DNA of 64,000 nucleotides from Actinopolymorpha cephalotaxi (GTDB lineage Bacteria > Actinomycetota > Actinomycetes > Propionibacteriales > Actinopolymorphaceae). Positions 28,877-52,389 of the stretch are shown in pieces. The notes under the pieces were generated by a model. That model was not told the origin of the DNA, did no database searches, and worked only from the letters and a program-made list of their open reading frames with translations. The stretch's first letter is position 1, and the number at the start of each line of letters is the position of its first letter. The stretch is taken from contig NZ_JACBZA010000001.1 of the NCBI RefSeq assembly GCF_013408535.1, positions 3,184,850-3,248,849 of the forward strand, read 5' to 3'. Made by a program: the position numbers and the translations under genes.

Positions 28877-30124
28877 TCACAGGTGCATGCCCGACTGAAC
28901 CCAGTCGAACGCCGGCAGCTTGCTGTGCGGGTCATCGAACAGGACTGACTCGTCGTTGACGATCTCGTGGACGAGTTCCGGTGACAACGGGTAGTCCACA
29001 TCTTCCGACCGCGTGGCCCAGAAGTAGGCGAAAGTCAGGGAGTCACCTAGCTCGTTCAGCAGGGCGCCCGCGACATCGCGGGAGTAGCGCTTGACCACGT
29101 TCGCGCACACGTCTACGAAAGGCGCTTCGAAGTCGGGATCGTCAAGCTCCCAGCCCAGCTGGTCGACCGAGTTCAACGTGCGCAGGTGCTCGGTTGTGAT
29201 CCCGTCATCCACCCAGGTGCCCACGTCGTGGCGCCAGTCGCCCGCCGAGTGTCCGTCGCCATACGCGTTGAACTCGCAGTGCAGGGCCCACAGGCTCATC
29301 AGACATGCTGCTGCGCGCGCCTCCGAGACGTCGTCGCTCGCGGCGACCAGCCCCGCTGCCTGTAGAGTGCCGACCGCCCACTCGACGAAGGCGTCTTCGG
29401 AACCGATCCACCAGACGGAGAAGTGGCTCTTGGCCGCCTGCTCGAGAGCGCGCAACCGCTTCGGCCCATCCTCATGCTCCACTTCCGGCGTCGTGCGCTC
29501 GCTTCCGGCGCCTTCCTCCTTGACCCCTGCTTGCTGACGTTCCCGATGCCGGCGCATCACGGCGAGACGAGCAGCCGCCAGGGTGCACGAGCTGGCCCGA
29601 TCGAGCACTTCTGTCGGCGTCGCCTCAAGTTCACCGGACTCGCTGCCACGCAGACCAAGCGCCTCCAGCTCTGGGAGGTCAGGGCCCGTGGTGATGGTGA
29701 TACTTCCGTCAGGAGCGAACCCGTGCCTCACCATCATCCTGCCCTCTGCGGCCCGCAGTGCGCGCCACAGGTCGACAGCCTCGCCGACGGTGTCGATCTC
29801 GTACGACAGGTCGTCCCCTGCGGACAGGTCGTCTGCCTCATCGAAGCACGTGCCCAATCGGCGAGCCACTTCAGCACCCGAAAAGGCACCTGCCTGTATG
29901 CCGAACTCGCGGTCAAGGATCTCGACGAGCTGGTCCAGTTGCACACGTGCTAATAGGAACAGGCCGACTGCAGCCCAGTCACGGCCCGGGCGCTCTCCTC
30001 GCTGGTCGTGCAGTGAAGGATCCGAAGAGCGTCGATCCTCCTGAGCATCCAGTGCCTCTGAGGCCATCCAGAACCGTGTGCCGACGATGTCGAGCTGCAA
30101 CGGGACCCCCGCGAACCAGGCCAC
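28877..30124 (-). CDS. Unknown protein, last gene of the defence operon
   Basis: A 415-residue soluble protein of no family I recognise. The first half is acidic and helical (QLDQLVEILDREFGIQ, LYEIDTVGEAVDLWRALRAA in outline), with a charged low-complexity linker around 210-245. The second half is helical and Trp-rich (HFSVWWIGSEDAFVEWAVG, YGDGHSAGDWRHDVGTWVDD, LTFAYFWATRSED). The GTG at 30124 has AAGGAAG just upstream and follows the McrC stop by 10 bases, so it is certainly in the same transcript. It may be an accessory, sensor or effector subunit of the system. Confidence 0.8.
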   Translation of the reverse strand: MAWFAGVPLQLDIVGTRFWMASEALDAQEDRRSSDPSLHDQRGERPGRDWAAVGLFLLARVQLDQLVEILDREFGIQAGAFSGAEVARRLGTCFDEADDLSAGDDLSYEIDTVGEAVDLWRALRAAEGRMMVRHGFAPDGSITITTGPDLPELEALGLRGSESGELEATPTEVLDRASSCTLAAARLAVMRRHRERQQAGVKEEGAGSERTTPEVEHEDGPKRLRALEQAAKSHFSVWWIGSEDAFVEWAVGTLQAAGLVAASDDVSEARAAACLMSLWALHCEFNAYGDGHSAGDWRHDVGTWVDDGITTEHLRTLNSVDQLGWELDDPDFEAPFVDVCANVVKRYSRDVAGALLNELGDSLTFAYFWATRSEDVDYPLSPELVHEIVNDESVLFDDPHSKLPAFDWVQSGMHL

Positions 30125-30134
30125 TGTCTTCCTT

Positions 30135-31337
30135 TCATTGGCGTGCGATACGAACCTTCCGCCCCTCACCGGTGAGGACGGACGCCAGCGTGCGCACCTG
30201 TGCCTCCAGGCGCGGCAACGGTTGGGTCAGGTCAAGGCGGTGTACAGCGACAGTGACTCCAGTACCCAAGATCTCGTACGGCACGGGCTCGTCACCGCCA
30301 TCCGCGTAGATCAGGTGGCCCGTGCTGAGGCCGAGGCGGGCGCAGTACGTGACCAGCTGGTAGACGTCGGGGTTCGAGACCTTGCCGGCGTCGTCGAGCA
30401 GCTTGTACTTGGTGTCTGCCACGGCACAGGCGCCGCCTGCTCCCTGGCGCAGCAGGTCCGGGCGGATCGCCAGGGTTCCGCCCTCGTCGAGGGGCATGGT
30501 CTCCTGCGCGCTCCAGGCCGGGTCCGTCTCCTCGAACAGGCGCGCCACAAGGCGCTCGAAGAGGGTGGCCATGTTGAGGCGGAAGCCGTAGATCGGAGTC
30601 TCACCAAGTCTGTCCTCGACGCCGGCGAAGCGCAGCACGATCTCGCTCAGAGCAAGTAGCGAGTGCAGGCGGGCGTTGAGCCGGGTCGCGGTCCAGGCCG
30701 GCGGGACCTCGCCAGGCACGAGGGGCTGCGCGTCGACGAGCATTCGGTCGAGCCGGCGCAGGTCGGTCTCGGCCTCGTCGCCGAGGCCAGGCAGCTGCAG
30801 CAGTGCCAGGGCTGCTGAACGGATCAGTCGGTTCTCGGCGGTGTCCACCGTCCACTCGTCCACGGTCACTTCCAGCGGACTGACTTGCCCGAACCGTCGC
30901 AGGTGCTGCTCACGGAGGCGCACACGCCCGCGCAGAACCGGCAGGGTCTGGTCCTCGGTGCGGTAGCCACGCAAGGGACCCGCTGCCATGGCGTGCGCCG
31001 CCTCGGCGGTGAACAGTCGGGCAAGGACGACACTGAGGTCGGCGTCGTCGACGACGTGCACTTGCTCGGGGTCGATTGTCAGGTTCGCCGCCGCCTCGGC
31101 CCTGGCAAGCAGCGTCAAAACCTGCACGGCGCCGACCTTGGGGGCCACCCGGACCACCAGGTCGCCACGGCGCATCACACCAACCACATGCTGCGCGGTT
31201 ACCCGCCAGCCGGCCGCCTCTGGTGTGGCCGTGACCATTCCGGACGCGTTGAGGGCCGCCGCATCCCCTGTTGTAAGCGCCACCCCCGACAGGACTTGAC
31301 CCTCGCGTAGCCGCGCCAGGTCAGCTCTGGTCGCCAT
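30135..31337 (-). CDS. mcrC: McrC-like 5-methylcytosine restriction nuclease subunit
   Basis: A 400-residue protein. The N-terminal half (LSGVALTTGDAAALNASG, VVRVAPKVGAVQVLTLLA, LRGYRTEDQTLPVLRGRV) is the McrC DNA- and McrB-contacting part. The C-terminal half holds the PD-(D/E)XK core: FRLNMATLFERLVARL, LAIRPDLL (Asp near 292), VADTKYKLL (D-x-K near 307) and DVYQLVTYCARL. It would supply the cutting activity for the McrB motor. The ATG at 31337 overlaps the McrB stop by 17 bases, and the next gene follows 10 bases after its stop. Confidence 0.9.
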   Translation of the reverse strand: MATRADLARLREGQVLSGVALTTGDAAALNASGMVTATPEAAGWRVTAQHVVGVMRRGDLVVRVAPKVGAVQVLTLLARAEAAANLTIDPEQVHVVDDADLSVVLARLFTAEAAHAMAAGPLRGYRTEDQTLPVLRGRVRLREQHLRRFGQVSPLEVTVDEWTVDTAENRLIRSAALALLQLPGLGDEAETDLRRLDRMLVDAQPLVPGEVPPAWTATRLNARLHSLLALSEIVLRFAGVEDRLGETPIYGFRLNMATLFERLVARLFEETDPAWSAQETMPLDEGGTLAIRPDLLRQGAGGACAVADTKYKLLDDAGKVSNPDVYQLVTYCARLGLSTGHLIYADGGDEPVPYEILGTGVTVAVHRLDLTQPLPRLEAQVRTLASVLTGEGRKVRIARQ

Positions 31338-34053
31338 CTGCGGTGGTACTCGGTGATTCGTGGCCCGGGGCTTCGGACTGCTCGTCTGGCGACTCCGGCG
31401 GTGCGGCGGAAAGGCCCAGTCCGTGCAGCCAGCGAGAGAACGGGTACCACTCGTCGACCTGAGTGTGCTTCCCGTAGTGGTGCTCGATGAGCATCGGGCG
31501 CAGCTCGCGACGCCACAGCCGGTCGAGGGCGACCGGAGAGTCCAGGCCGGAGCGCATGAAGTACGAGGGCCCGAAGGCGAGGGAAGGGTCAAGGCCCCGC
31601 CGGAGCATGGTGGCGTTGAGCCGGTCGCGCAGATCTGCGAGCGCCGCCGGCATGCTGTTGCTCCCGCACCACCTGCGGAGCATTCCTGCCAAGGCGGGTT
31701 CTTCCGAGTCCATGGACAGAAAGACGAACCGGCGGCGCATCGCGGCGTCGAGCAGCGCGATGGACCGGTCCGCGGTGTTCATCGTGCCGATGATGAAGAG
31801 GTTCTCAGGCATCTGGAAACGCTCGCCGTCGCTGTACAGCAGCTCGATCTCGGACTCGCGGTACTCGAGCAGGTAGTACAGCTCACCGAAGACCTTGGCG
31901 ATGTTGGCGCGGTTGATCTCGTCGATCACCAGGACGAACGGCTTGCCGGGAGCCTTGGCGGCCTCCTCAGCAATCCGCTTGAGCGGGCCGGGTCGCACGG
32001 TTAGTGCCGCTCCCCCGCTGTCGGGGGTCTGCACGGGCCGGAACCCTTCGACGAAGTCCTCGTAGGAGTACGTCGGGTGGAACTGCACCAGCGCCCACTG
32101 CGCCTCGGTGATGTCGCAGGCTTCCAGAAGCCGCTTGACCAGGAACGTCTTGCCGGTGCCGGGCGGGCCCTCGAGCACGACCTGCTTGCGCTCGTTGAGG
32201 CTGACCAGTAGCTCCTCGAGCCAGCTGCTGTCTGCGTGGTGGAGCTGGTGGGCGAGGGCGTCGACGTCGCACGCCAACACGGCCGCTCCGGGAAGCGCGG
32301 CAGTGTCCGAGCCGTCGACGTTCGTGCGGTCCTCGGGCTGCGCGTCGGGTTCGTCGACCTTGTCGGTATCGACGAACCCGGCGAGGTCGTCGTTGACGTC
32401 TGTGAGCTCGGTGAGCGGTGTGGCGATGTCGGTCAGGTCGAGGACGTCCTCGCCCTTGAATCGCACGCGGGTCCTGATGGTGCCCGGTAGTTGCTTCACC
32501 TCGGGTGTGGCGTCCGGGTACCACGCGACGCGTCTTGTGAGCAGTGACAGCCCGCCGATTGACTGCAGTTCGGCAGGGCTGTCCTCGACCCGACCGAGCC
32601 GGAGCACGCCACCGTCGACAGTGGTGACGAGATCGCCAGGCTGCATGCCGAGCACGAAGGAAAGGACGTCGCGCTTCTTGGTTTCCCGCTTGACGACCGG
32701 AAGGTGCCCATAATGCTGGTCGACGAGGGAGCTCAACGCTCCCTGGTCGACCTGGGCGGGGAGCTGGGTGAGCTGGCCGACAGTGATGCTGACGTAGCCT
32801 TGCCGAATCCAGGCCGGGACTCGATTCTGCTGGTCGACCTCGCCACGCACGAGCCACGCGCGGGAGCCGCCGTCGGGCGTCTCCCTCCACTGCTGGAGCA
32901 GGGGTGCGACGTCGTACCGAACCGGCTGACCTCCGGTCTCCTGCTGGAGCCGGAGGGTGATGGTCCTGAGGTCCCGCTCGACGTCGTCAGTGAGGGCGTC
33001 GGACCCGGTTGCGAGCGTGGCGACGATGCGTGCCCTCTCGGCCGGGGCGAGCACGGAGGTAAAGGCAGTCGGATGCGCTACCAAGCAGACGAGGGACACG
33101 ATGCGCGGGTCGGCATCGGGGGCGGCGAGGACCAGGTCGCGAAACGCCCACGGATCGTTCCACGCCGCCGCGCGAGCCGGCTCTGGCTGCGCGAACCAGT
33201 GGACGAGGATCCGGGCGACCGACGCCAGCATCATCAGTGGGGTGGCGATCAGCGCCGGGCCGCCGTGCACGAAGCCCTGCTCGAGATCCGCGGACATCAG
33301 CAACGGCAGTCCGGGCGGGTCCACCATGGGGACGAGTGGATTGCGTACCCGACTGCGTTTGGTGCTCCCCACCATGTCGCTGAAAGGGGCAGTCAGCAGT
33401 GCCAGGGCCTCCGCCGCCAGAATCCTCGCCTCGTCGGGTTCCAGCCCTGGCAACGTCGCGTGCGGGGTCGACGTCCGGTCCAGGTAGTCCCGCAGTGCAC
33501 GGGCGTTGCCCGCGGTCCAGACCTCCATGTCTTCGGTGAATGCCGAGGCACCCGCTCGCCAGGCGTCGAGCAAGGGAGCGGCCGCGCGGAGCGCATGGAC
33601 CGTCCCGCTGCCGGCGTGGAGAACCTGGGTCGACGGATCGGCCTCCGGGTCCGGGAGGGTGGCCTTGCGGGACTCGTCCCACTCTCGGTAGGCGACGACC
33701 GCCGCGTCGTAGAGGTCCTGTGGGTCGGGGTAGCTCGCGAGGGCAGCCCGGCCGTCGGCGGCGAGCCGGAACCCGCCCTCGCTGGTCGCGTGCAGCCAAC
33801 CCGCGTGTTCGCAGATGGTGGTGAGGTTCCAGGCCAGGTTGTTCAAAGCCCGGACCGCTCCGCTGTTGGTGAGACTGGCGTCGTACGGCGTCAGCGGCTC
33901 CCGGGCGGCGGCGAGATCCTGCAGCTCCGTCAACGTGATTGGATCCGCCTGCTTGCCGAGCTCCTCCATCGCCGCACGGAGGCGTCGGCGGTAGCGGGCG
34001 GTCCAGTCGGGGTCCTGCTCCGGCTGCGGGCTGAGCATGGAGTCGGCAGTCAT
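31321..34053 (-). CDS. mcrB: McrB-like AAA+ GTPase
   Basis: A 910-residue protein. Residues 1-590 are an unusually long N-terminal region, helical at first and beta-rich near 400-590 (WLVRGEVDQQNRVPAWIRQG), perhaps an EVE-like base-reading module. The AAA+ domain follows: Walker A GPPGTGKT near 630, Walker B VLVIDEINRANIAKVFGEL near 707, and the McrB-type GTMNTADRSIALLDAAMRRR near 755. McrB forms GTP-driven rings that move on DNA and activate McrC. It overlaps the methyltransferase gene by ATGA and the McrC gene by 17 bases. Confidence 0.93.
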   Translation of the reverse strand: MTADSMLSPQPEQDPDWTARYRRRLRAAMEELGKQADPITLTELQDLAAAREPLTPYDASLTNSGAVRALNNLAWNLTTICEHAGWLHATSEGGFRLAADGRAALASYPDPQDLYDAAVVAYREWDESRKATLPDPEADPSTQVLHAGSGTVHALRAAAPLLDAWRAGASAFTEDMEVWTAGNARALRDYLDRTSTPHATLPGLEPDEARILAAEALALLTAPFSDMVGSTKRSRVRNPLVPMVDPPGLPLLMSADLEQGFVHGGPALIATPLMMLASVARILVHWFAQPEPARAAAWNDPWAFRDLVLAAPDADPRIVSLVCLVAHPTAFTSVLAPAERARIVATLATGSDALTDDVERDLRTITLRLQQETGGQPVRYDVAPLLQQWRETPDGGSRAWLVRGEVDQQNRVPAWIRQGYVSITVGQLTQLPAQVDQGALSSLVDQHYGHLPVVKRETKKRDVLSFVLGMQPGDLVTTVDGGVLRLGRVEDSPAELQSIGGLSLLTRRVAWYPDATPEVKQLPGTIRTRVRFKGEDVLDLTDIATPLTELTDVNDDLAGFVDTDKVDEPDAQPEDRTNVDGSDTAALPGAAVLACDVDALAHQLHHADSSWLEELLVSLNERKQVVLEGPPGTGKTFLVKRLLEACDITEAQWALVQFHPTYSYEDFVEGFRPVQTPDSGGAALTVRPGPLKRIAEEAAKAPGKPFVLVIDEINRANIAKVFGELYYLLEYRESEIELLYSDGERFQMPENLFIIGTMNTADRSIALLDAAMRRRFVFLSMDSEEPALAGMLRRWCGSNSMPAALADLRDRLNATMLRRGLDPSLAFGPSYFMRSGLDSPVALDRLWRRELRPMLIEHHYGKHTQVDEWYPFSRWLHGLGLSAAPPESPDEQSEAPGHESPSTTADGDQS

Positions 34054-37000
34054 CGGGTCGTCTCCGGGTGGCGTGGGCCCTGGCCGGGCGGCGGGTCGAG
34101 CGGGCTGGTGAACGGCACACCGGTCTCGGCTGCGTTGGACATGGCGTCGTAGGCGGTGAGCACCAGCCGCTTGGTGCGGAACTCGCCATGGTCGCGCTCC
34201 TCCTTCTTGTGGAGGACCGGGAATGAGTCGAGTACATGCTCCGCGTCAGCGCGGTCAAGTCCGTAGAGGTGCAACATCGCACCGTCCAACTCGGCGGCTA
34301 GCTGTGCCCGGCGCGCTGGCAGCCACCGAAACGGCGGCCCGGGTGTGCTATCTCTGGACAACGTGTCCGTCGCATAACCCGCCATCCGATGGTTGGTGTA
34401 GGTGAGTTCGAGGACTCGCGGCCGCACGAAATCCTCGACGGTCAAGTCTGTCCACGCTGGGACCTCCGCGAAAGCGGAAGGCGCAGGGGCCGCCAACTGC
34501 TTAGTGGTGAAGTACTTCATGTGAGTCCCGCTGAGTTTCTGGCGTGCGATGTAGTCGAAGATGAGCGAGGACCAGATGGTCTGGAGCAGGGGCGCAAATC
34601 TCGGATTCGTTGGGAAGGCGAGCAGGAACGGGTCGCCCGTTCCAGCAAGTGGCAAAGCGCTCGGTACGAATGTCCGTTCGTTGCCGGCATTGGTGATGTC
34701 GCGCCAACCCATCAGCCAGTCTCGGTCCCACCAGGCCGGGAGAGCGTCGAGCACCGTGTCTCTCGCGATCCAATAGCGAGTCAGCACATCATGGTCGGGG
34801 TCGTCGAGTTGCTGCTCGGTGAGACGAGGCAACGAGCCGAGGTTCAACTGCGCCTGGGTGGCCCCAGCGTAGGTCGCTAGCCGGCTGTTCCAGTGACTCA
34901 GCATTTTGGCTTCGTAAAGCGGTAGCCAGGACTCCATGTCGTTCGACCACGCCCAGCCGTCGTAGCGCACGTCTTCGTCAGCGAGGTCGTCGAAGGTACG
35001 GAACAGGCCACTGTCGCTCGCCATGTTGAAGAGGCCCTGTTTGAAACTGAGGCCCCACGGGTTGGCGCCGCCGTCGCGGATGAGGAGGGGGTGACGGCGG
35101 TAGCAGGCCAACGTGATGTCAGCGTCGCGGCGCGACCGAAAGACAGGCAGAGTCCCGGTGTTGGGGTTGAGCAGCAGCACCTCGTCGGCCAACAGCTCGA
35201 AACGGCGGGCCGGCACATCCAGGACATGACGAACCAAGAATGCGAGACGCACGTCCTTGACCGGCTCGCCGCCGGTCATCACTGAGACTGCGAAGCGGAA
35301 GGCGTGATGAACCCCTACGAAGATCTTGCCCTCGTTCTCGAAGTCGTAGAAGGCCGCGAGCCGGGCCGAGCCCAAGGTATCTGCGAAGAACGCCGCCGTA
35401 GTGGCGTCCGTAGCTAGCCCCGTGGGCGTGATGATCCCGCAACGCCCAGAGCTCGCGGTGATGGCGCGGAGATGCTCGGCGAAGACGCTGTAGGTGTTGA
35501 TCTTCCCCGTGGCCGTGAGCGGGAACCGGCCGCTGCCCCTAATGAGTGCAGCCTCGGCCTGACCACGCCGCGCTTCCGTCAGGTACTCCTGGAAGAGTTC
35601 TGAGTTCGACTGGCGCAGGGCACTGATCAACTGCTTGCGCTTGGCGGCATTGGGCGCGTTCGCGATCCGGTCGTCCCGCGTTGCGAAGAACTCCTTCTCG
35701 CTGAACTGCAAGGCTTCCCAGGGTGGATTACCCAGTACCGCGTCGAAGCCGCCAACCCAGCCGTAGGCGCCGTCGGTGGGACCGTCATCGGGGGTGCGGA
35801 ATACCTCGGGAAACTCCAGGTGCCAGTGGAAGAGCCGGTGTCGCTTCGCGACCGTGCGGACGGCGGCTAGGACAGTTTCGGGAGCGGTGCCGTCAGCGAC
35901 CCGCTGGACTACACGGTCAGTGATCGGCACGGCGTCGGCGCCTTTGGGACTAAGGAAGGCGGCGCACCAGGCGTCGGCGGCAAGCCGGTTGCGCACCGTC
36001 GCCGGCTCCTGGTCAAGATCTGCGTACCGCTGGGCCGCCCAAGCGATCGCGTCAACAGTCTCGTGGGCGGTGAGGCGGTCGGTGACCTCGTTGACGACCC
36101 GGCGGCTGGCCGTGAGGTCGAGCACAAGTCCGGAATCGTCGAACAGGGCATCCTGCCCCCGGTGCTTGCGGTCCTCGGTGTTGGCCTTCTTCCAGGTCGA
36201 CACGGTGGCCTTGTCGTCGCCAGTGAGAGCGGTGAAGGCGGTATTGGGGACGCCGTCGCGCAACAGCGCGGGGGTGGTGCCGAGCAGGGCGTTGCCGACC
36301 TTGATGTGGTGGTCGAGGAAGGACAGCGGCTTGCCGGGGGTCATCGCGGTCAGCCAGAGGCTGACCTTCGCCAGGTCAGCAGCCATCGGGTTGACATCTA
36401 CCCCGTAGAGGCAGCGGGCAACCACGTCGTGCAGCGCGTCACTGTAGTCGCTGGGGGTCGGGTCCACCTCGCCGGTGCGCGCGGTCGCCAGCCGCAACGC
36501 GATGCGCCGGGCCGCGGCAACCAGGAAGTGTGCCGACCCAACGGACGGGTCACAAACCTTCAGGTCGAGCAGGGCTGCTGCGCGCGCTTCCGGCGTGCCG
36601 GCGTGCTTCTCAACGCCGTCGAGCACGGGGTCGAGGGCCGTGTCGAGGACGAGCTCCACAAGCTCGGTAGGGGTGTAGTAACTGCCGGAGGTCTTGCGCT
36701 CGTTGCCGGCGAGCACCTCCAGGCCGAACTCGTGGCTGATGGGGTCGTAGCGGGGTACGAGCTCGAGGAGTGACTCGTATACAGATCCGAGCTCCTCGGC
36801 GCCGAGCTGCGCGAAGTCCACGCGGCGGCGTGGCTGCCCCGGGGGCTGGACGACCGAGAGGGACCGCACGGCCGCCAGCAGGGCGGAGTTAGGCAACCGG
36901 CTGCCGGCCAGCACGTCGGCCTCGGTGACCGTGAACAGGCCGCCGAGTGCGGGGAGACCGAGCCGAGGCTCGCCATCCCGTTTACCGAGCGCGTTCAGGA

Positions 37001-38066
37001 CAAGCTCGACGCCTTGCCACAGGTCGTCGTGGTTGCTGCCGTGCCGCTCGAGAGCGAGCTCTCGCAGTCGACGAGAGGAGAAGTACGTGTCGTAGCGATC
37101 TCTCGCCTCAGTCCCGGTTCCCGGGGCCAGCAGCGCTCCGCGGTCCTCCGCGACAGCCCAGAACAGTAGCCGGTAGACCGTGCGGAGCACTGCCGCGTGG
37201 ACGTCAGCCGGCCGGACCTCCCGTCGTGCGATCCGGTCCCGGAGATCGTGGTTGGCAGGGTGCTGGAGGAAGCCGGTGCCGAGGGTCGTCAAAGCGGTCT
37301 CGACGCCATCGCGGAGCAGGGCCAGGGCGCGGACACCCTGGGTCACGGCGGTGGTGCGCCAGGTCTCCAGCCAACAGCTGCTGGGCAGCTGATCGTTGGC
37401 CACCTCCACCCGGGACTGGTGGCACAGCAGGAACAGGAGGAGGAACTCGGCGTACAGGTCGCCGTCGAACATCCCCTCCAGATCGAACTCGACGTAGGCG
37501 ACGCCACTGAGGGTGGTGGAGTCGCGCAGCAGCCGCAAGACCCGGCCGTTGCTGACGATGCCCCACAGGTAGGCGTCGGTGCGGTTGAGTAGCTCCTGAA
37601 CCATCGCGTGGGGTGCGCGGGACGCCCCTGCGACACCAGGTGAGCGTGCATCCAGCGGTACTCCCCAGCCGAGCAGGTGCACTGGTGTCCGGCCCGAGAG
37701 GTGGCTGACGGGGTATTGCTTCTCCCCCGCTACGAGGCCACCGGCCGGGGTGGTGGGCACGCGGCCGTAGCCGAGCTGGTCCAGAAGCAGGCCGAGCCAG
37801 CGCTCGCGGGTGAGCCCGATCGCAGGGTCGCCCGCGGGGAGCCGGGCAAGGTCGTCGTGGAAGCGCCGGTAGGCACCGTGCAGGTAGGACCAGACGCGGG
37901 CTGCCGCCTCGCGTGGGTTCTCCGAACCGAGGCGGTAGTCGGCGCCGGCGAGCCCGTCGAGGGTGCCGCCCGTCACGGCGTCGAGGACGTCACCGGGTAG
38001 CAGGCCACCGGCGACGCGGACCGTGGTCAGGCGGGAGGTGGCAGAGCTTGTCGAAGTGCGCGTCAC
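34050..38066 (-). CDS. Large N6-adenine DNA methyltransferase (Eco57I/PglX/DrmMI-like)
   Basis: A 1338-residue class gamma-type methylase. Motif I is DPSVGSAHFLVAAARRIALR near 507, then YGVDVNPMAADLAKVSLWLT, and motif IV is VLGNPPWEAL near 777, the NPPW of N6-adenine enzymes. A long C-terminal target-recognition part follows (FRFAVSVMTGG, LYEAKMLSHWNSRLATYAGA). Size and sequence style resemble PglX of BREX and DrmMI of class 1 DISARM. It would mark host DNA, and possibly take part in restriction with the helicases. The GTG at 38066 overlaps the SNF2 gene stop by 4 bases; an earlier ATG at 38402 would lie deep inside that gene. Confidence 0.92.
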   Translation of the reverse strand: MTRTSTSSATSRLTTVRVAGGLLPGDVLDAVTGGTLDGLAGADYRLGSENPREAAARVWSYLHGAYRRFHDDLARLPAGDPAIGLTRERWLGLLLDQLGYGRVPTTPAGGLVAGEKQYPVSHLSGRTPVHLLGWGVPLDARSPGVAGASRAPHAMVQELLNRTDAYLWGIVSNGRVLRLLRDSTTLSGVAYVEFDLEGMFDGDLYAEFLLLFLLCHQSRVEVANDQLPSSCWLETWRTTAVTQGVRALALLRDGVETALTTLGTGFLQHPANHDLRDRIARREVRPADVHAAVLRTVYRLLFWAVAEDRGALLAPGTGTEARDRYDTYFSSRRLRELALERHGSNHDDLWQGVELVLNALGKRDGEPRLGLPALGGLFTVTEADVLAGSRLPNSALLAAVRSLSVVQPPGQPRRRVDFAQLGAEELGSVYESLLELVPRYDPISHEFGLEVLAGNERKTSGSYYTPTELVELVLDTALDPVLDGVEKHAGTPEARAAALLDLKVCDPSVGSAHFLVAAARRIALRLATARTGEVDPTPSDYSDALHDVVARCLYGVDVNPMAADLAKVSLWLTAMTPGKPLSFLDHHIKVGNALLGTTPALLRDGVPNTAFTALTGDDKATVSTWKKANTEDRKHRGQDALFDDSGLVLDLTASRRVVNEVTDRLTAHETVDAIAWAAQRYADLDQEPATVRNRLAADAWCAAFLSPKGADAVPITDRVVQRVADGTAPETVLAAVRTVAKRHRLFHWHLEFPEVFRTPDDGPTDGAYGWVGGFDAVLGNPPWEALQFSEKEFFATRDDRIANAPNAAKRKQLISALRQSNSELFQEYLTEARRGQAEAALIRGSGRFPLTATGKINTYSVFAEHLRAITASSGRCGIITPTGLATDATTAAFFADTLGSARLAAFYDFENEGKIFVGVHHAFRFAVSVMTGGEPVKDVRLAFLVRHVLDVPARRFELLADEVLLLNPNTGTLPVFRSRRDADITLACYRRHPLLIRDGGANPWGLSFKQGLFNMASDSGLFRTFDDLADEDVRYDGWAWSNDMESWLPLYEAKMLSHWNSRLATYAGATQAQLNLGSLPRLTEQQLDDPDHDVLTRYWIARDTVLDALPAWWDRDWLMGWRDITNAGNERTFVPSALPLAGTGDPFLLAFPTNPRFAPLLQTIWSSLIFDYIARQKLSGTHMKYFTTKQLAAPAPSAFAEVPAWTDLTVEDFVRPRVLELTYTNHRMAGYATDTLSRDSTPGPPFRWLPARRAQLAAELDGAMLHLYGLDRADAEHVLDSFPVLHKKEERDHGEFRTKRLVLTAYDAMSNAAETGVPFTSPLDPPPGQGPRHPETTR

Positions 38067-40939
38067 CGGAGACCTCCCGCCACCGGCATCAGCAGCTGCA
38101 CCGACAGGACGTCGACAGGGTGCTGAGCCTGGACCCTGAGGCCTCGGCGTGATGCCTGCGCCTCGCGGCTGGCGCCGGCCCGCGCACGCAGATGCGCCGA
38201 GAGGAGTCGATCGGCCCGCTGGTCGGCGACCGTGTTCAGCGCTGGAGTGAGCTCGTCGAGCTCGTTGAGAAGGTCTTGCATCCAGCCTCGGGCCATTCCC
38301 TCGATGACGTTGCCGGCAGGCGCCGCGACTAGGAGCGCCTCGGCGCGGTCGTCGGGCAACCACACTGCTTGGCTCGGAGGTCCCTCGAAGGCGACCACGC
38401 ATGCGTCCTCGGCGACCTGTTGCCGCGTTCCGGTCGGTGTCGGTAAACCGAGGTGGAAGCGGAGACGCAGCAGAAGCACGGTGGTTCTGGTGGTGACTGC
38501 GGTGGTGCGCATGACGCCTGCGCGGCGAGCCGGACGTTCGGCGGCAGGGACTGTCGGGTCGAGGGCGCTCTCGAGGACGTAGCGGGCGATCGCCTTCACC
38601 GCGGGGTCAGTGCGGGCGACGACGGCGTGACCGCGTTCGGCCGGCGGCTCGGTGTGGAACGGCAGCGGCTCTCGCAGTCCAGTAGGAAGGCCGGTGCGAG
38701 CACCCAATGGGAGCGTCGCGGTCACCGCCGTGAACCCGTCGTCCGTCGTAGAGACGGTGGACCCGAGTGCGGCGAAAGTCGAATCGAGGAACTCCCGCAG
38801 GGCACCGTGGGACCCGAGGGCCGCGCGGACCTCCTCCACCTCGACGGCGACCTCTTCAGGCCGGATGGTGTTCTGCGCGTAGCGGGCGCGAGAGGCCTTC
38901 TCCTTCTCAGCGGCGGAGGTCCAGGCCTGCTCGAGTTCGCGTGAACGCTCAGCGAGTTCGAGGTCGAGCATCAACTGGTCGCGGGAGTCCTCTCCGCGCA
39001 GCAGCAGACCCTCGGCGAGCGCGTCGATGAGGCCCTGGCCTTCGCCGGGTACCGGCACCGCTACGCCGGTGGCCTTGGCGATGGCGCGATGCCGCCGGAT
39101 CAGGACGTCGAGCACGATGCCGTCGATTCCGTTGTCCTCGCCGTACAGCGTGATCGCCCGCACGATGTCCTTGCGCTGCAGGAAGCGGTCGACACGGCCC
39201 TCGCGCTGCTCGTGGCGAGTCGGGTTCCAGCACAGGTCGTAGTGCACGACCGCGGAGAAGCCTTCCTGGAGGTTGACCCCCTCCGACAGGCAGTCGGTGG
39301 CGACCAGGACGTGGGTGCCGTCGGTGGCGGTCAGCTCAGCGACCCGCCTCTCGCGCTCGGCCGGGGGCAGCTCTCCGGTGACGCTGATGACGCTCACCGG
39401 CGCCCTCTTGGTGCCCAGCGCTGTGGTGAGGTGTTCCGCGACGTAGTGAGCGGTGTCGATGAAACGGCAGAAGACGATGGGTTGGTCTCCGCCGGCGAGC
39501 AGCAATCTCACCTGGTCGGTGAGTGCGGCCAGCTTGCGATCCTGCGCCGGGCCTCTGAGAGTGGCTGCGCGGCGGGCGAATCCCAGCAGACGTCGCCGGT
39601 CCCTGCCGCTCGCAGTGTCGGTGGCGTCCTCGGTGATGGCGCCCGGGGTCGTGTCGATGCCTTCGAGAGCCTCGTCGTCGGCGTCCAGCACCGCGGCACG
39701 GCCGACGGCATCGGCCTCCTGCACAGTGTCGGCGTCGATGTTGGCGGCGCGGGTGCGCAGCGTGGCCTCGGCGGCGCGCGGGCTGGAGGCGAGAGCACGC
39801 AGCAGGGCGAGCACCGACCACCACCGCACGCGACCTTTCGCGTCACCGCGGTCTTGGCGTACCTGTTCGCGAGCGTAGGCAAGCACGTCATCGAACAGGG
39901 AGCGGTACTCGGGCGCGAGCGTGTAGGGGACGTCGAGGGTCAGGCGGTCGCGCGGGAACGGGGTGTCCTCGTCGAGGTAGCTGCGGATGTCGCCGCGGCG
40001 GCGCTGCACGAAGTGGCGGGCCAGCAGTCGCCGGCCGCGCTCGGTGCCGAGGTCCGCGGTCGCCAGGTCGAGATGGCACAAGCCGATCAGATTCGCGAAC
40101 GCCTCGTCGTCCCCGGAGTGCGGTGTAGCGGTGGTCAGCACCAGGTGGCGGGTGGGATCGTCGGCCAAGCCCCGCAGCAGCTCGAAGCGTTGGTGGCGTG
40201 AGCGCTGGCCTTGTCCCGAGCCCCCTACGCAGTTGTGGGCCTCGTCGACGATCACCAGTTCGGGGCAACGTTGCAGGAAGTCGTGCCGTCTGCGGTCGGA
40301 CTTGATGAAGTCGGTGGAGACGATGACGTGGGGATGCCGGTCGAAGATCGATTCGTTCATCATCAGGTCCCGCTCGAGGCTCTTGACCGTGCTGGTCAGC
40401 ACGAGCACGGCGTCGATGCCGAACTTGGTCGCCAGCTCACGCTGCCACTGCTCGGCCAGAGCGGGCGAGCAGAGGACGGCCAGGCGCTGCACGGTGCCCT
40501 GCGCGAGCAGTTCGGCGGCGATCAGACCCGCCTCGACGGTCTTCCCGATGCCGACGTCGTCGGCGATGAGCAACCGGACGACGTCCTGGCGTAGCGCCAG
40601 CAGGAGCGGGACGTACTGATAGCTGCGTGGGCTGACCGCGGTCCCGGCCAGCGAGCGGAAGGGGCCGGCACTGGCCGAGAAGCCCACTCGCAGCGCTGTG
40701 CGCAGCAGGGCAGCGGCGGAGCTGTCGCCCAGGTCGTCGGCGCATGGTGGTGGGAACGTCGCCGGTTCCACGCCGTCCTCGTCAGGGAAGACTCCGACGA
40801 CATCGGCAGTGCCTCCGCCGAGGGGCTGGAGGAGCAGGAAGTCTGGTGTTGTCCCGGGGAGAACCACCCACTCGCGGCCGCGGGCGCGGACCAGACTGCC
40901 CACGGCGGCATCGAGCGGTCGGGGCGTGGTCGCAGTCAT
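38063..40939 (-). CDS. SNF2-family helicase (DrmD-like)
   Basis: A 958-residue superfamily 2 ATPase. LLIADDVGIGKTVEAGLIAA is motif I near 126, LVIVDEAHNCVGGSGQG is the DEAH motif near 231, VLTTATPHSGDD is motif III, and the second RecA lobe ends with DLCWNPTRHEQREGRVDR (motif VI) near 578. The set HSGDDEAFANLIGLCHLD and the QREGRVDRFLQ ending are typical of the RapA/SNF2 helicases found beside DNA methylases in DISARM and related systems. No nuclease motif is visible. It overlaps the genes before (ATGA) and after (GTGA), so it is part of a coupled operon. Confidence 0.92.
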   Translation of the reverse strand: MTATTPRPLDAAVGSLVRARGREWVVLPGTTPDFLLLQPLGGGTADVVGVFPDEDGVEPATFPPPCADDLGDSSAAALLRTALRVGFSASAGPFRSLAGTAVSPRSYQYVPLLLALRQDVVRLLIADDVGIGKTVEAGLIAAELLAQGTVQRLAVLCSPALAEQWQRELATKFGIDAVLVLTSTVKSLERDLMMNESIFDRHPHVIVSTDFIKSDRRRHDFLQRCPELVIVDEAHNCVGGSGQGQRSRHQRFELLRGLADDPTRHLVLTTATPHSGDDEAFANLIGLCHLDLATADLGTERGRRLLARHFVQRRRGDIRSYLDEDTPFPRDRLTLDVPYTLAPEYRSLFDDVLAYAREQVRQDRGDAKGRVRWWSVLALLRALASSPRAAEATLRTRAANIDADTVQEADAVGRAAVLDADDEALEGIDTTPGAITEDATDTASGRDRRRLLGFARRAATLRGPAQDRKLAALTDQVRLLLAGGDQPIVFCRFIDTAHYVAEHLTTALGTKRAPVSVISVTGELPPAERERRVAELTATDGTHVLVATDCLSEGVNLQEGFSAVVHYDLCWNPTRHEQREGRVDRFLQRKDIVRAITLYGEDNGIDGIVLDVLIRRHRAIAKATGVAVPVPGEGQGLIDALAEGLLLRGEDSRDQLMLDLELAERSRELEQAWTSAAEKEKASRARYAQNTIRPEEVAVEVEEVRAALGSHGALREFLDSTFAALGSTVSTTDDGFTAVTATLPLGARTGLPTGLREPLPFHTEPPAERGHAVVARTDPAVKAIARYVLESALDPTVPAAERPARRAGVMRTTAVTTRTTVLLLRLRFHLGLPTPTGTRQQVAEDACVVAFEGPPSQAVWLPDDRAEALLVAAPAGNVIEGMARGWMQDLLNELDELTPALNTVADQRADRLLSAHLRARAGASREAQASRRGLRVQAQHPVDVLSVQLLMPVAGGLR

Positions 40940-43900
40940 CGCGGGGTGGCGCTCCTTCCAGGGCCGAACAGCCATTCGTAGCGGTCGGCGACGGCCGACC
41001 AGTCGTCATCGTGCCGGAAGCGCACCACGAACCAACTGGCGTCCGTCAGTCGTTGCACGGCACCGTCGTCGCGCTGCTGTTGTGTGGCGGTGTCGTGGTG
41101 CGGGCCGTCGATGAAGAGGGCAACGGGGTTCCCGGGCAGGTCGTAGATGAAGTCGGGGCGGACCCGGAGTTCATCGAGGGTGCGTTGAGCATCGTCGGGC
41201 AGGCGGCGCCCGGTGTCGGTGAGCCAGGCGATGAACTTGGCCTCTAGCGAGGAGTCGCCCAGGCGCGCGAGCCACTCAGCCTGCTCCTCGCGCGGCCGCC
41301 CGCCTGCGCCGATCTCGACCCTGGCTGTGGTCAGCAGAGTGAGCAGATCGACGATGGCGTGCCGGTTGATGCGCGTGTGCTCGTACTGGTTGCCGTAGGA
41401 GAGCAGGCAGTCGTAGCAGCCGCGTTCGCAGCGCACGGTTCCGCCTGGCGGCATGTGCAGGTCGCGGCCGGTGCCGGGCTCGTAGTGGATGATCTCCAGG
41501 GCACGTCGGGCCACCCTTGCAAGAGCGCCCGGGTCCTCGATGATGCGGGCGAGCACCCCGGCCCCGCCTTCGGCTGCCTCCGTGAGGAGGAAGCGTCCGC
41601 GCTCGTCCTGATCGGGCAGCTCGCGGCTGTCGATCTCGGAGTCCTCCAGCTGGAACTCGGCCTCGACCGCACGCTCGAGGGCGACCCGTAACGTGACCGC
41701 CTGCTCGTCGGGCAGGCGGTGGGCCGCGCGGACGACGAGCAGGTTGCGGCGATCCTGCACGTAGGGCACCACCTTCTCCCGCTCGCGGATATCTTCGGCG
41801 TCGGGGAGGGCCTCAGCGTCGACGGTGGTGTCGGCGGCCTGCTTGTCCGACAGCCAGTTGCCCTCACGCAGGTCGAGCCAGAAGCCGCGTTCGTCGGGGT
41901 TCTTGCGGCGTCGGCGGCCGACGTTGGCAATGCGGATCTCCGCCGCCTCGGCCTGGGTCAGCTCGAGCGCAACCCCGGTGTCGGTGACGGCCTCGGCCCG
42001 GAGGCAGTCGCCGGAGTGGCCGCGGTCCGGGAACCGGTACGACACCTCCAGCTCGTAACCGGACTTGCGGCGTTCTTCCTCGTCGCTGCTGATCCGTTCG
42101 CGGCGGCGTGTGAAGACGGTCTGCAGGCGGAGCAGACCGTGCTGGGTTGTCCCGATCCTGTCGCCACAGTTCTCGCAGACGTCCAGTCCGACGCGCACCG
42201 GATGGTGGTAGCCACACCCTTCGCAGCGTTTGGCGGCCTCGGTGACCGCACCGCCGCCGGAGGTGTCTCCGGGGTCGCGGGGCAGCTGGACCCGGGTGAC
42301 CTCGTAGCGGGCCCCCTCGTGGTAGATCAGGCTGTTGGGGCCGAACTCGCTGATGGCGACGAACCGGGGGCGTTGCAGGTAGTCGCCGTCGACCTTCCCG
42401 CCGCGCCTGGCTGGGATATATGCAGCGAGCGGTAGCCGCGGGAAGGAGTAGCCAGGCAGGAAGCCTTCGCTGGCCAGGTAACGGTAGCTGTAGAAGTCGG
42501 TGGCGCCGGCTTCCTGATCGTCGTTGCGCAGGAGCGTCAGTTGGTTGCGTGCGTCGGCGCGGCGGCGCTCGGCCTGCCGGCGGGCCAGGCGGGTGGCGGT
42601 AGTACTGATCGCAAGCCGGTGCTGCTCGTTCACCTCTTGCAGGGCGGTGCGATACAGGCTGCGCCACCGGTCGAACGCGTCGTCGAACGCCCTGGCCGCG
42701 TGCTTTACCTGATCGTGCACCCAGGTGTTGGTCCACCACCCCGGGTCGCCGGAGTCCAGGGCCCAGGTGGCGCGCAGGCCCTCAAGCACTCTCTCTGCCC
42801 GAGCCTGGGACCGGCGGGCGACGCCAGGGTCGTTGACCGCGCTCCAGAGGTTGGGCAGCAGGTGCAACGTCGGTGCGTCTCCGTCGGCCTCGACGAGGTC
42901 GGTGATCGACGACTTCATGGACTCGTTGGTCTCCGCGAGCCAGATGGCGTGCACGTGGGAGCGGATCAGGTCCTGGTTGGTGAGGTCCAGGCGCGGGGCG
43001 ATCACGGAACCTGCCACCATCTCGCGCGAGCGTCGGAACCAGTAGCTGTCGTGAGCATTGCCCGTGGAGCAGTAAGTGAGCACGAGCGCCTGCTGGCCGC
43101 TGCGTCCAGCGCGGCCCGACCGCTGGGCATAGTTGGCCGGGGTGGGCGGTACGTTCCGCAGCGCGACGGCATTGAGGTCGGAGATGTCGACGCCGAGTTC
43201 CATCGTGGGAGAGCAGTAGAGCAACGGCAGATCGCCAGCGCGGAACTGCTGCTCGCGTTCTAGACGCTTGGGCTGCGGGACCTGTGCGGTGTGCTCGCGG
43301 GCCACGAGCCCGGCGTACCTGCGTGCAAGGTCGCGGTACAGGTCACGGAAGAACGGGTTGACCCGGGCCGTCTCCTCGCCACTGAAGGACTTCCGCAACG
43401 GGTCGATAGCGCCGTTGCGGCCATCGCCGGGGAGCCAGCGCAGGGTGCCTGCGTTGATGCGGTACTCGGCGCCGTCGGCCGCGTCGTAACGGGTGAGTAT
43501 GCCTGCCTGCTTGAGGACGCAAAACAGGTCGAGGATGACTCGTGAGGAGTCCTCCGACGTCAGCCCGGCGGAGTTGGGTAGTCCGGCTGCGTCGCGTCGC
43601 AGGTACTTGCCGAAGGCACCCCGTCCGGAGACGGCCAGGACGCCTCTGCGTCCTCCCGCACGCGCGGGTCGGGGAATCGCGACGCCCGCCTCCACCACGC
43701 GGTCGTCCTCCCCCACGCTCCAGGGCTCGATCAGGTGCGCGCGGGTGAGGCGCTTGAGCCGGTCGAAGCCCTCGTCAGTGAGGCAGTCGACGTCGATGGC
43801 ACGGACCCGGCGCAGCTCGTCGAGGAGGATCTGGCAAAGCTCTTGGCGCTGGGCAGGACTGATCTTGTCGAGCAGATAGGTGCCCTGCCAGGACTCCTCG

Positions 43901-46161
43901 TCCGCGGCAAGCTCGGGCAGGTCCCGGTAGGCGATGCGCAGGAGCCCCGTCTGTTCGAGGTTGGGCATCGTGACTCGCCAGCCGCGCTGGAGGTCGACGT
44001 AGAGCTGGTACTCGACCATTGCCCTCAGGGCCCGTTCGGCGTCCTTCTTCGCACCGAACTTGGCTTCTGGTGCCTGTGCGAAGTCGTGGGTGCTCAGATT
44101 GAGGGTCCGGGTGACCGTGTCACCGAGGGCCTCGTGGGTCAGGCCTTCGGTGCCGGCTGCGAGGAGAGCTGCGTGAAGTGCAGCCCGGAGCTGCGATACC
44201 TGGACGAAGTCGTTGAGGTGTCCGGCCTGGAGGCTCGCGTCCTGGCGGTTGTCGACGAAGGTAAGTAGCTTGCGGGCGCGGGTCGGCAACTGCGACTCGG
44301 GGAGACTCTTCAGGGCGGTGACGATAGACGCGCTGAGCAGAGACACCGCACTGGAGCGTCCCTCTGCATCGAGGGTCGCGAGCTTGCCGAAGTCGTTTCC
44401 CCGCACTTGTTCGTAGGCGACGCCGCAGCGCATGCAGAACGCGAACGGGGTGGAGACGAACCATGCGACCAGCCCGGTGCGCGTGTTGTCGACGGTTCCG
44501 TCGGGCCGCAGGTAGACCTTGGTGGGCAGGTACTTGCGCTTGCTGTCAATGATCTCGACCCGGTCCGTAGCTGGATCGGTGGCGAGCCATGGCTCGGGCA
44601 GGCGTCCGGAGGAGAGCGGGTCCTCGGGCCACGGGAGATCGCTGCTGATGTAGAGGTATCCGGTAACGCTGTCGCCGCCGCTGGCGTCGGCATCTCGGCG
44701 GGAGACGAAGGTGTCGTGGGCATCCGCAGTCGTGCGGGCTACGACGAGGTACTCCTGCCCGCACTCGCGGCAGAACCCGAGCGGCAGTAGGGCCTTCTCG
44801 GGTGCTCCGGGCACACGCACCTGGTACGTGCCAGTGATGTGGCGGCTCGCCTCCGGCTCAAGGGAGACGTACACCGTGTCGCCCTTGGAGAGGAACTGGT
44901 GCAGGCGAAACGCGAAGACGGGGCGGCCGGAGTCGGGGTGTCTGACGCCCGATCCTTCACGCAGCACGTTCTGCAGTGCCTGCTGGCAGGACTGCTCCTC
45001 GCGACCGGTGAGGTTGGCCAGCATGGCCGCGGCCATCGGAATCGTGACGGGCGCTCGTCGGACGAGCCGCTCGGTGCCTTCCTCAACGGTTAGCCCGAAG
45101 GTGGTCTCGATCCAACTCGCCAGCGGGTCGGAGGTGAAGGTCGCGAAGTCGCGTGCCTGCTGGACCTGGTTCTGCACTACCGATGCGCCCAGCAGCTGCC
45201 CGTCGTCCGCGCCCTCTGGCGTGGCTCGCACGAGCGTCTCGCCAACCACGTGCTCGGGACGGACCTCGGTACCGAAGAGGCGGGTGGCAACTCCGGCGAC
45301 CACGCGACTTCGGTCCTCGACCGTGCCGCCGCTGGACATCGTTGCGCTGGTCCCGATCACCTGCAGATCGTCGGCTGCGCACTCGTCGCGCAGCCGACGG
45401 ATGAGCATGGCGACGTCCGCCCCTTGACGGCCGCGGTAGGTGTGCAGCTCGTCGAGCGCGAGGAACCGCAGGCCTTGGGCGGCGCGGACCAGCTGGTTAC
45501 GTTCGTCTGGCCGGGTAAGCACCAGCTCGAGCATCACGTAGTTTGTCAGCAGGATGTCGGGCGGGTCGGCGAGGATGCGTCGACGTTCATCCTGCGCCTC
45601 CTGGCCTGTGTACCGGGCGAAGGTGACCGGTTCCTGGCCGTCGGGGTAGCCGTACCGCAGGAACTTGCTGAGCTCTTCGACCTGGGAGTTGGCAAGCGCA
45701 TTCATCGGGTAGACCACGATCGCCTTGACCCCGGGGTGACGGTCGCCGTTGGCGCGCTCCCGCAAGACTGAATCGACGATAGGCACGATGTACGAGAGAG
45801 ACTTGCCTGATCCGGTCCCGGTGGTGAGCACGTAGCTCGCGCCGGTCCGGGCGATCTCGACCGCCTCACGCTGGTGCCGATGAAGCACGATTGGGTCCCG
45901 GCCGGCGTCCTCTGCGTGTTCCTTGCGGCGGAAGATGCGGGCCGCCTCGGGGTGGAGCAACCCTTCCGCGACCAGGTCCGGCACCGCCCCGCCGGTGGCG
46001 AACGAGGGGTTAAGCCCGACCCATGGGTCCGGCCACTGCACGCCGTCTTCGAACTGCTGATCGACAAACGCCTTGATCCGTTCGTCGCGCACTTCTACAA
46101 AGCCAGATGTGAAGTCCCGATAGTCCGAGATCATCCGCTCATGGACCTCGAAGACGTCCAC
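40936..46161 (-). CDS. Giant DEAD/DEAH helicase with DUF1998 region and C-terminal nuclease-like domain
   Basis: A 1741-residue protein and first gene of the operon. Motif I is YVLTTGTGSGKSLSYIVPIV near 110, motif II is LALDELHTYRGRQGADVAML near 235, and motif VI is YAQRSGRAGRSG near 1010. A zinc ribbon lies near 1310-1335 (CEGCGYHH, CENCGD). A DUF1998-type cluster, CERGCYDCLLSYGNQYEH, lies near 1573. The last 90 residues read LRVRPDFIYDLP, VALFIDGPHHDT and WFVVRFRHDDDW, a Vsr/DUF559-like PD-(D/E)XK layout with Asp and a later Asp/His. In size and domains it resembles DruE of Druantia or a DrmA-DrmB fusion from DISARM. The start is the GTG at 46161. Confidence 0.9.
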   Translation of the reverse strand: MDVFEVHERMISDYRDFTSGFVEVRDERIKAFVDQQFEDGVQWPDPWVGLNPSFATGGAVPDLVAEGLLHPEAARIFRRKEHAEDAGRDPIVLHRHQREAVEIARTGASYVLTTGTGSGKSLSYIVPIVDSVLRERANGDRHPGVKAIVVYPMNALANSQVEELSKFLRYGYPDGQEPVTFARYTGQEAQDERRRILADPPDILLTNYVMLELVLTRPDERNQLVRAAQGLRFLALDELHTYRGRQGADVAMLIRRLRDECAADDLQVIGTSATMSSGGTVEDRSRVVAGVATRLFGTEVRPEHVVGETLVRATPEGADDGQLLGASVVQNQVQQARDFATFTSDPLASWIETTFGLTVEEGTERLVRRAPVTIPMAAAMLANLTGREEQSCQQALQNVLREGSGVRHPDSGRPVFAFRLHQFLSKGDTVYVSLEPEASRHITGTYQVRVPGAPEKALLPLGFCRECGQEYLVVARTTADAHDTFVSRRDADASGGDSVTGYLYISSDLPWPEDPLSSGRLPEPWLATDPATDRVEIIDSKRKYLPTKVYLRPDGTVDNTRTGLVAWFVSTPFAFCMRCGVAYEQVRGNDFGKLATLDAEGRSSAVSLLSASIVTALKSLPESQLPTRARKLLTFVDNRQDASLQAGHLNDFVQVSQLRAALHAALLAAGTEGLTHEALGDTVTRTLNLSTHDFAQAPEAKFGAKKDAERALRAMVEYQLYVDLQRGWRVTMPNLEQTGLLRIAYRDLPELAADEESWQGTYLLDKISPAQRQELCQILLDELRRVRAIDVDCLTDEGFDRLKRLTRAHLIEPWSVGEDDRVVEAGVAIPRPARAGGRRGVLAVSGRGAFGKYLRRDAAGLPNSAGLTSEDSSRVILDLFCVLKQAGILTRYDAADGAEYRINAGTLRWLPGDGRNGAIDPLRKSFSGEETARVNPFFRDLYRDLARRYAGLVAREHTAQVPQPKRLEREQQFRAGDLPLLYCSPTMELGVDISDLNAVALRNVPPTPANYAQRSGRAGRSGQQALVLTYCSTGNAHDSYWFRRSREMVAGSVIAPRLDLTNQDLIRSHVHAIWLAETNESMKSSITDLVEADGDAPTLHLLPNLWSAVNDPGVARRSQARAERVLEGLRATWALDSGDPGWWTNTWVHDQVKHAARAFDDAFDRWRSLYRTALQEVNEQHRLAISTTATRLARRQAERRRADARNQLTLLRNDDQEAGATDFYSYRYLASEGFLPGYSFPRLPLAAYIPARRGGKVDGDYLQRPRFVAISEFGPNSLIYHEGARYEVTRVQLPRDPGDTSGGGAVTEAAKRCEGCGYHHPVRVGLDVCENCGDRIGTTQHGLLRLQTVFTRRRERISSDEEERRKSGYELEVSYRFPDRGHSGDCLRAEAVTDTGVALELTQAEAAEIRIANVGRRRRKNPDERGFWLDLREGNWLSDKQAADTTVDAEALPDAEDIREREKVVPYVQDRRNLLVVRAAHRLPDEQAVTLRVALERAVEAEFQLEDSEIDSRELPDQDERGRFLLTEAAEGGAGVLARIIEDPGALARVARRALEIIHYEPGTGRDLHMPPGGTVRCERGCYDCLLSYGNQYEHTRINRHAIVDLLTLLTTARVEIGAGGRPREEQAEWLARLGDSSLEAKFIAWLTDTGRRLPDDAQRTLDELRVRPDFIYDLPGNPVALFIDGPHHDTATQQQRDDGAVQRLTDASWFVVRFRHDDDWSAVADRYEWLFGPGRSATPR

Positions 46162-52287: not shown

Positions 52288-52356
52288 CGGGTGTCCTCCT
52301 GCCTCCGGTCGCGACCTCTGGTCGCGTGTCTGTTGGTCGCTGGGTCTGGGTTGGGG

Positions 52357-52389
52357 TGCCTGGCCCGGGGCCGGGTCCCGGGCCAGGCA
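52357..52389 (-). terminator. Strong hairpin before traB
   Basis: TGCCTGGCCCGGG and CCCGGGCCAGGCA form a perfect 13-bp stem with a 7-base loop, 22 bases after the stop of the preceding gene. There is no T-tract. It may act as a partial terminator or mRNA processing site that sets TraB levels below those of the upstream genes. Confidence 0.55.

Follow-up and report, generated by a model that had tools for sequence, protein, structure and literature searches.

The window, a 64,000-nucleotide stretch of the Actinopolymorpha cephalotaxi genome, carries six open reading frames at 28877-46161 that form a single minus-strand run with overlapping starts and stops. The genes of the run and two regions within them were as follows.

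40936-46161, minus strand: YprA/DUF1998 SF2 helicase, ArmC-like (1741 aa, GTG start; Pfam DEAD, Helicase_C and MZB/DUF1998; DruE models best in PADLOC)
40939-41325, minus strand: predicted Vsr-like PD-(D/E)xK domain of the helicase, residues 1613-1741 (D1670, D1685, G1686 and H1689 intact)
38063-40939, minus strand: SNF2/RapA-like helicase of the SNF2 family (BrxHII/DrmD/ArmA-like), its start within an ATGA overlap
34050-38066, minus strand: PglX/DrmMI-like adenine methyltransferase, ArmB-like (Eco57I/N6_Mtase; GTGA overlap; NPPW motif)
34095-34946, minus strand: target-recognition-type region at the methylase C-terminus, one copy, homologous to separate genes in nine relatives
31321-34053, minus strand: McrB (AAA_5; ATGA overlap; weak Mrr_N-like winged helix, a middle region and an AAA+ GTPase with NTAD, of the form NxxD)
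30135-31337, minus strand: McrC nuclease (PF10117, 4.8e-54; PD...DxK motif; 17-base overlap with McrB)
28877-30124, minus strand: orphan gene in a variable slot after McrC, behind a 10-base gap and outside the system by our count

The run had been described from the sequence alone, with these overlaps and the 10-base gap, as a composite defence operon whose parts resemble those of DISARM and of Druantia. All frames and families were confirmed, and the reading as a mixed defence operon was right. Searches against Pfam, NCBIfam and PADLOC, the last of which this sequence-only reading had proposed, assigned five of the six proteins and left the sixth without a family. The helicase, SNF2 protein, methylase and McrB were recognised by Pfam, PADLOC and NCBIfam, and McrC by Pfam and NCBIfam with no PADLOC match. 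The SNF2 protein matched best with DpdE, DrmD and BrxHI/II models and the methylase with DrmMI models, while Pfam gave AAA_5 and a sub-threshold Mrr_N match for McrB. Catalytic motifs were found in all five proteins of known family (Walker A, DEAH, NPPW, the GTPase motif and the PD...DxK of McrC), the SNF2 helicase having GIGKT as its Walker A together with DEAH. As the earlier reading had noted, no PLD nuclease, PglZ or BrxC was among the Pfam matches of the six proteins. A search for sigma-70-type promoters gave 0 matches against 0.7 expected, which says little here.

McrBC or the C-terminus of the helicase had been proposed as the source of nuclease activity, and both stand as candidates, McrC with its PD...DxK and the helicase with a C-terminus containing the motif RPDF...FIDGPxHD. 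A profile of 14 such C-terminal domains searched against the PDB returned 1cw0, 3hrl, 1vsr, 1odg and 3r3p as its first five matches at marginal E-values of 0.037-0.13, followed by two transporter proteins at E 0.5-1; 3hrl and 3r3p we take to be Vsr-like endonucleases. The AF2 model of the window domain had a pLDDT of 87.5, and Foldseek with this model returned nothing at E <= 0.001, the best matches being mostly PD-(D/E)xK nucleases. Against a profile built from loci without linked McrBC the window domain scored 139.5 bits. With marginal E-values and weak fold matches, the helicase C-terminus is probably a Vsr-like PD-(D/E)xK nuclease.

The triad of helicase, SNF2 protein and methylase was named ARMADA type I by Bell et al. 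2025 (PMC12458937), who give its usual order as YprA gene, BrxHII-like helicase and PglX-like methylase, describe its helicase as ending in a predicted active Vsr-type nuclease and report the system to be abundant in Actinomycetota. The window has this gene order, and its helicase carries the C-terminal Vsr-type nuclease, for which the E-values are marginal alone and the conserved residues give support. No GajB-like ArmD follows the methylase, and McrB, McrC and the orphan stand in that place. The McrBC pair is canonical, with an NxxD McrB GTPase and the PD...DxK of McrC, and because the NTAD of the window McrB is of the NxxD form the set can be read as ARMADA type I plus canonical McrBC. We hold this identification of the first five genes with high confidence. 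The fuller reading, that the five genes are ARMADA type I extended by a canonical McrBC cassette on an integrated element and working as proposed below, we consider probable. When 34 helicases were placed in a tree, that of the window grouped with 31 other ARMADA loci, and the E. coli ATCC 8739 ArmC and DruE lay across one branch, both very long; the tree contained no published type I reference protein, and the placement lends weak support to type I as such.

McrBC beside the triad had also been noted before (PMC11090510 and PMC12458937). Bell et al. 2024 (PMC11090510) associated McrB clades with a DISARM-like system and deferred it to a later paper, and the main text consulted of PMC12458937 mentions McrBC twice, both times in its introduction. 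In the literature consulted the published anti-phage test is of type II (PMC12458937), and no experiment on ARMADA type I was found there. The proposal of a new composite system has therefore been overtaken, since the triad is already named and its association with McrBC already published (PMC12458937, PMC11090510). The sequence-only reading had itself said that an already named type would count against it, and this is largely what was found, the triad being ARMADA type I and the McrBC extension being published as an association.

The sixth gene had been counted as part of the system, and this did not hold. The orphan had no Pfam, PADLOC or NCBIfam match, and a comparison with 163 loci returned just the gene itself and a match of 62 residues (E about 1e-3) from a genome that has no ARMADA match. 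None was found in the plasmids or viral contigs searched. The slot after McrC holds an unrelated 434-aa gene in locus L064 and a TcmP gene in Nocardioides sp. JS614, and with no counterpart in the ARMADA relatives examined the orphan was rejected as a component. A categorically new six-gene system that includes the orphan is very improbable in view of these relatives, of the named triad and of the published McrBC association, the tight packing of all six genes being what speaks for it.

The operon lies on an element marked by the following features.

6919-6993, plus strand: tRNA-Arg (TCT), integration site of the operon-bearing element (ARAGORN)
7084-8397, plus strand: tyrosine integrase adjoining the tRNA (PF00589, 1.8e-15)
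6950-7011, plus strand: 62-bp perfect direct repeat of the tRNA end, with its second copy past the window end at 74668-74729 (10668-10729 of L156)

The operon is located between the tRNA-Arg and integrase on one side and the distal 62-bp repeat on the other, which bound an integrated element of some 67.7 kb. The tRNA end recurs in shorter form, on the numbering of the window, at 82079 (29 bp) and at 118362 (26 bp). A 300-bp exact direct repeat (7915-8214 and 14680-14979) places a duplicated piece of the integrase gene 6.8 kb away, and an 801-aa gene at 50071-52476 on the minus strand had weak mad8/HerA ATPase matches.

Relatives of the helicase were counted at E <= 1e-100, with the window genome included in each sample and some genomes in more than one. 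The phylum sample had the helicase in 23 of 396 genomes, the order sample in 11 of 293 and the class sample in 31 of 384. Nocardioides sp. zg-1308 has a helicase 79 percent identical to that of the window, and plasmid pNOCA01 of Nocardioides sp. JS614 has one at 78 percent, its five genes being those of the window and arranged as there. A helicase scan of genome contigs returned a single true relative besides one short match. Where the sequence extends far enough, the helicase is followed by SNF2 and methylase homologues in almost every locus, the exceptions including a helicase fragment (L049) and Mesorhizobium L153. On pNOCA01 (L075) the ARMADA-McrBC operon is preceded, a few kb upstream, by DISARM drmA/drmB and a gene for a PglX-like methylase. 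In Deinococcus radiodurans R1 MP1 (L076) the ARMADA methylase is in pieces with an IS among them, and McrB lies about 1.7 kb past the last piece.

Linkage of McrBC to the triad varied with taxonomic distance. PF10117 was detected in 13 of 31 ARMADA genomes: all 11 of the order, two of the three others of the class and none of the 17 from other classes, some of which are incomplete. Within the order PF10117 occurred in 49 of 293 genomes, and so in 38 of the 282 without ARMADA, and all 11 McrCs of the ARMADA genomes lay near the helicase. This enrichment was strong (Fisher p 1e-9, uncorrected for kinship). Of the 28 loci of the class sample, 20 had a downstream McrBC on the strand of the triad, at up to about 21 kb past the methylase; 4 lacked it in their stretch, and 4 were undecidable at contig ends. 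Two of the four loci without linked McrBC came from genomes with an McrC elsewhere and two from genomes with none. In the 13 linked loci McrB and McrC distances tracked those of YprA (Mantel r 0.91 and 0.96, p 1e-4).

Despite this strong kinship within linked loci, a tree of 35 McrCs rules out a single origin of linked McrBC: the linked McrCs are not one clade (8 changes), unlinked ones are nested among them, and a one-clade tree was rejected. Locus L083 holds a deletion remnant (4711-5223) that joins about 80 residues from the N-terminus of the helicase to the final 48 of a recognition domain, with the McrB and McrC frames adjoining. McrBC is thus strongly linked in Actinomycetes and separable. 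The sequence-only reading had named a separable, only occasionally linked McrBC as evidence against itself; the absence from all 17 genomes of other classes, L083 and the McrC tree largely bear this out, yet the linkage is complete in the order and present in 20 of 28 class loci. Conservation of the neighbourhood across actinobacterial genomes, which it had proposed as a check, held for the triad and for McrBC at the level of the order and failed for the orphan and for McrBC in other classes.

The recognition parts of the system also varied. In nine relatives of the order (L065-L073), one or two stand-alone genes homologous to the methylase C-terminus lie between methylase and McrB. In four of them, those with two separate genes, the methylase itself stops before the recognition region, and therefore all nine have two recognition domains per locus. 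In a tree these domains split according to position into two moderately supported sets (85/87 and 94/97), and the window has a single domain, fused to its methylase. Among L065, L066, L069 and L070, whose helicases are 93 percent identical, identity is 58-88 and 47-87 percent in the two recognition domains and 62-86 percent in the McrB N-terminus, against 92-96 for the McrB GTPase. A row for L075 in this comparison came from its neighbouring DISARM methylase and was disregarded. Such divergence is what would be expected of exchangeable specificity parts.

For the McrB N-terminal reader of the window Foldseek gave no useful fold match; an EVE-like modified-base reader had been expected there, and with no Foldseek support for it we make no such claim. 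The McrB of some relatives combines Mrr_N with a DNA-binding domain of the 6-O-methylguanine-methyltransferase type. The N-termini of L068, L069, L070 and L071 matched this domain at E 1.3e-6 to 2.9e-4, and L069 alone passed its curated cut-off. N-termini of this type are a possible modified-base reader.

We scored 67 Vsr-like domains with the profile built only from loci without linked McrBC; the table omits helicase fragments that stop short of the C-terminus, L031 as a duplicate, and the rows from E. coli. The four Vsr residues were intact in all 23 loci without linked McrBC. Among McrBC-bearing loci they were degenerate in 22 of 35 and intact in 13, the window included. Of the remaining loci, four undecidable ones keep the residues and the other five are proteobacterial. 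Intact domains scored 125-175 bits and degenerate ones with McrBC 17-85 bits, leaving a clear gap, and the association of decay with McrBC gave an uncorrected Fisher p of 2.7e-7. PF10117 was absent genome-wide in 19 of the 23 loci without linked McrBC. The call is weaker for the other four, two being in genomes with an unlinked McrC and two on plasmids (L077 and L078) judged from the stretch only, that of L078 ending 2 kb past the methylase. McrC kept its D...DxK in all 22 Vsr-degenerate loci, as PD in 20, AD in L033 and ID in G942.

A tree of 61 helicases, for which the Vsr columns had been left out, requires about 8 Vsr losses if loss is irreversible. All fell on McrBC-bearing branches, which make up 0.565 of the tree length (P about 0.01 for all losses lying there), and a test of independent pairs on the tree was not significant, with too few informative pairs. 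The idea of a handover of cutting from the Vsr domain to McrBC was formed on the first loci, which are part of the same data, and it also held once the class sample had been added. The final four plasmid loci to be scored fit the pattern of Vsr decay: the domain is retained in L161, L162 and L163, which have no McrC, and lost in L160, which carries an HNH gene. No earlier description of this pattern was found in the texts consulted, and among the papers listed on YprA-Vsr and McrBC-PglX/DISARM only those of Bell et al. concern these systems by title; to that extent the pattern is new here.

Eight proteobacterial plasmid loci were examined. The domain was intact in Roseomonas L078 and Paraburkholderia L161, neither with an McrC in its stretch, and no intact Vsr domain was found in Croceicoccus L150, Kozakia L151, Sphingobium L152, Mesorhizobium L153, Acidithiobacillus L154 and Mesorhizobium L160. 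In four of these six (L150, L152, L154 and L160) an annotated HNH endonuclease gene follows the methylase, directly or a few genes on. Croceicoccus L150 also has McrBC, located upstream, and Acidithiobacillus L154 has an IS between the helicase and a split SNF2 gene. Mesorhizobium L153 gave neither an SNF2 nor a methylase match in its stretch. Kozakia L151 has a complete triad with a Vsr domain that is not intact, an IS after the methylase and no nuclease gene annotated nearby. Such degeneration in Proteobacteria without a downstream McrBC counts against the handover. Because of the decay of Vsr on McrBC branches together with the HNH genes in proteobacterial loci, McrBC looks like an exchangeable nuclease arm, although 13 of the 35 McrBC-bearing loci, that of the window among them, retain both nucleases.

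From the observed gene content, motifs, linkage and pattern of Vsr decay we infer the following working. The methylase would mark host DNA at sites read by its own C-terminal recognition domain, and the SNF2 and YprA helicases would engage and open unmarked DNA or, in the manner of DruE, single-stranded intermediates of replication. DruE itself has been shown to load on 3' single-stranded DNA and to cut (PMC13192584). In the window system the cut might be made by the Vsr-like domain of the helicase, by McrC driven by GTP hydrolysis of McrB, or by both, and the exchangeable N-terminal reader of McrB may extend the attack to DNA that slips past the methylation check, modified phage DNA for instance. 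The Vsr domain would be free to decay because McrBC can supply the cut, as its repeated decay in McrBC-bearing relatives suggests. Both nucleases of the window look intact.

Whether McrBC is an integrated nuclease arm or a mere neighbour we judge to be evenly balanced; the Vsr pattern favours the arm and does not prove it. A wider form of this reading, which we find plausible at somewhat short of even chances, makes McrBC an interchangeable nuclease module: the helicases would deliver phage DNA to McrC, the Vsr domain would be released from selection after McrBC was captured, and HNH would serve likewise in Proteobacteria. ARMADA type I would then be a helicase-methylase chassis on which both the nucleases (Vsr, McrBC, HNH) and the recognition domains can be exchanged, the latter encoded in part by stand-alone genes. 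The main rival to the integrated arm is that two independent systems share one transcript, ARMADA acting on unmodified and McrBC on modified phage DNA, with the decay of Vsr having another cause. It would leave unexplained why, in the sampled Actinomycetota, decay is limited to McrBC-bearing loci. It accords with McrBC pairs without ARMADA in the same order, partly near kin of the linked ones, with the retention of McrBC by the deletion remnant L083, with McrB N-termini far more variable than the GTPase, and with a BREX system and a type IV enzyme that complement each other on one plasmid (PMC8565348). We regard this rival as a credible but tentative reading.

It is also conceivable, and in our judgement improbable, that McrBC guards the methylase by killing or blocking cells with altered methylation, as E. 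coli McrBC is reported to do with foreign methylases. The window methylase looks adenine-specific, whereas the classic cue of McrBC is methylcytosine. A guard would agree with the report on E. coli McrBC and foreign methylases (PMC2614495) and with three attempts at an mcrBC deletion in Deinococcus radiodurans in which a wild-type copy was kept, although an earlier mcrB insertion mutant is cited in the same paper (PMC10085245). Returning to the integrated arm, the window operon with both candidate nucleases intact, together with relatives in which one is dead, offers a ready set for finding which nuclease acts. If McrBC is a recruited effector, a type IV enzyme that is usually pictured alone would join a methylation-guided system, and the presence of a type IV nuclease beside a methylase would be explained.

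Several known systems were compared with the run. A BREX assignment was rejected, PglZ and BrxC being absent from the NCBIfam as well as the Pfam matches of the six proteins and from the listed PADLOC matches. One DpdE model gave the SNF2 protein 994 bits, and DpdJ was matched weakly by the helicase; no 7-deazapurine gene lies in the operon run (the remainder of the window was scanned in part), and the DpdE match is probably an effect of PADLOC labelling. Druantia was likewise set aside, as DruE models match the helicase and no partner gene, presumably DruH or DruM/DruF/DruG, is among the PADLOC matches listed for the other five proteins, the best 25 in the case of the SNF2 protein and the methylase. 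Druantia III shares with the window a YprA helicase fused to a nuclease, DruE, which engages 3' single-stranded DNA (PMC13192584), and differs in having a PLD nuclease and a DruH partner in a two-gene system with neither methylase nor SNF2 protein. DISARM class 1 has the SNF2 helicase and PglX-like methylase families in common with the window. It was rejected because it has separate helicase and DUF1998 genes (DrmA/DrmB) and the PLD nuclease DrmC, whereas the run of the window has a single fused helicase gene and nothing of the PLD family among its Pfam matches.

The McrB-like GTPase clades of Bell et al. 2024 (PMC11090510) share a canonical NxxD McrB with the window, and YprA, DUF1998, SWI2/SNF2 and PglX appear in their figure key. 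ARMADA type II of E. coli ATCC 8739 has three protein families in common with the window and is arranged as ArmA-ArmB-ArmC-ArmD with a UvrD-type ArmD, whereas in the window YprA comes first and ArmD is missing; type II protects without growth arrest and requires all four genes (PMC12458937). With ARMADA type I the window shares YprA, a BrxHII-like SNF2 protein, a PglX-like methylase and a C-terminal Vsr-type nuclease on the helicase, and it differs in that McrBC and the orphan continue the same run.
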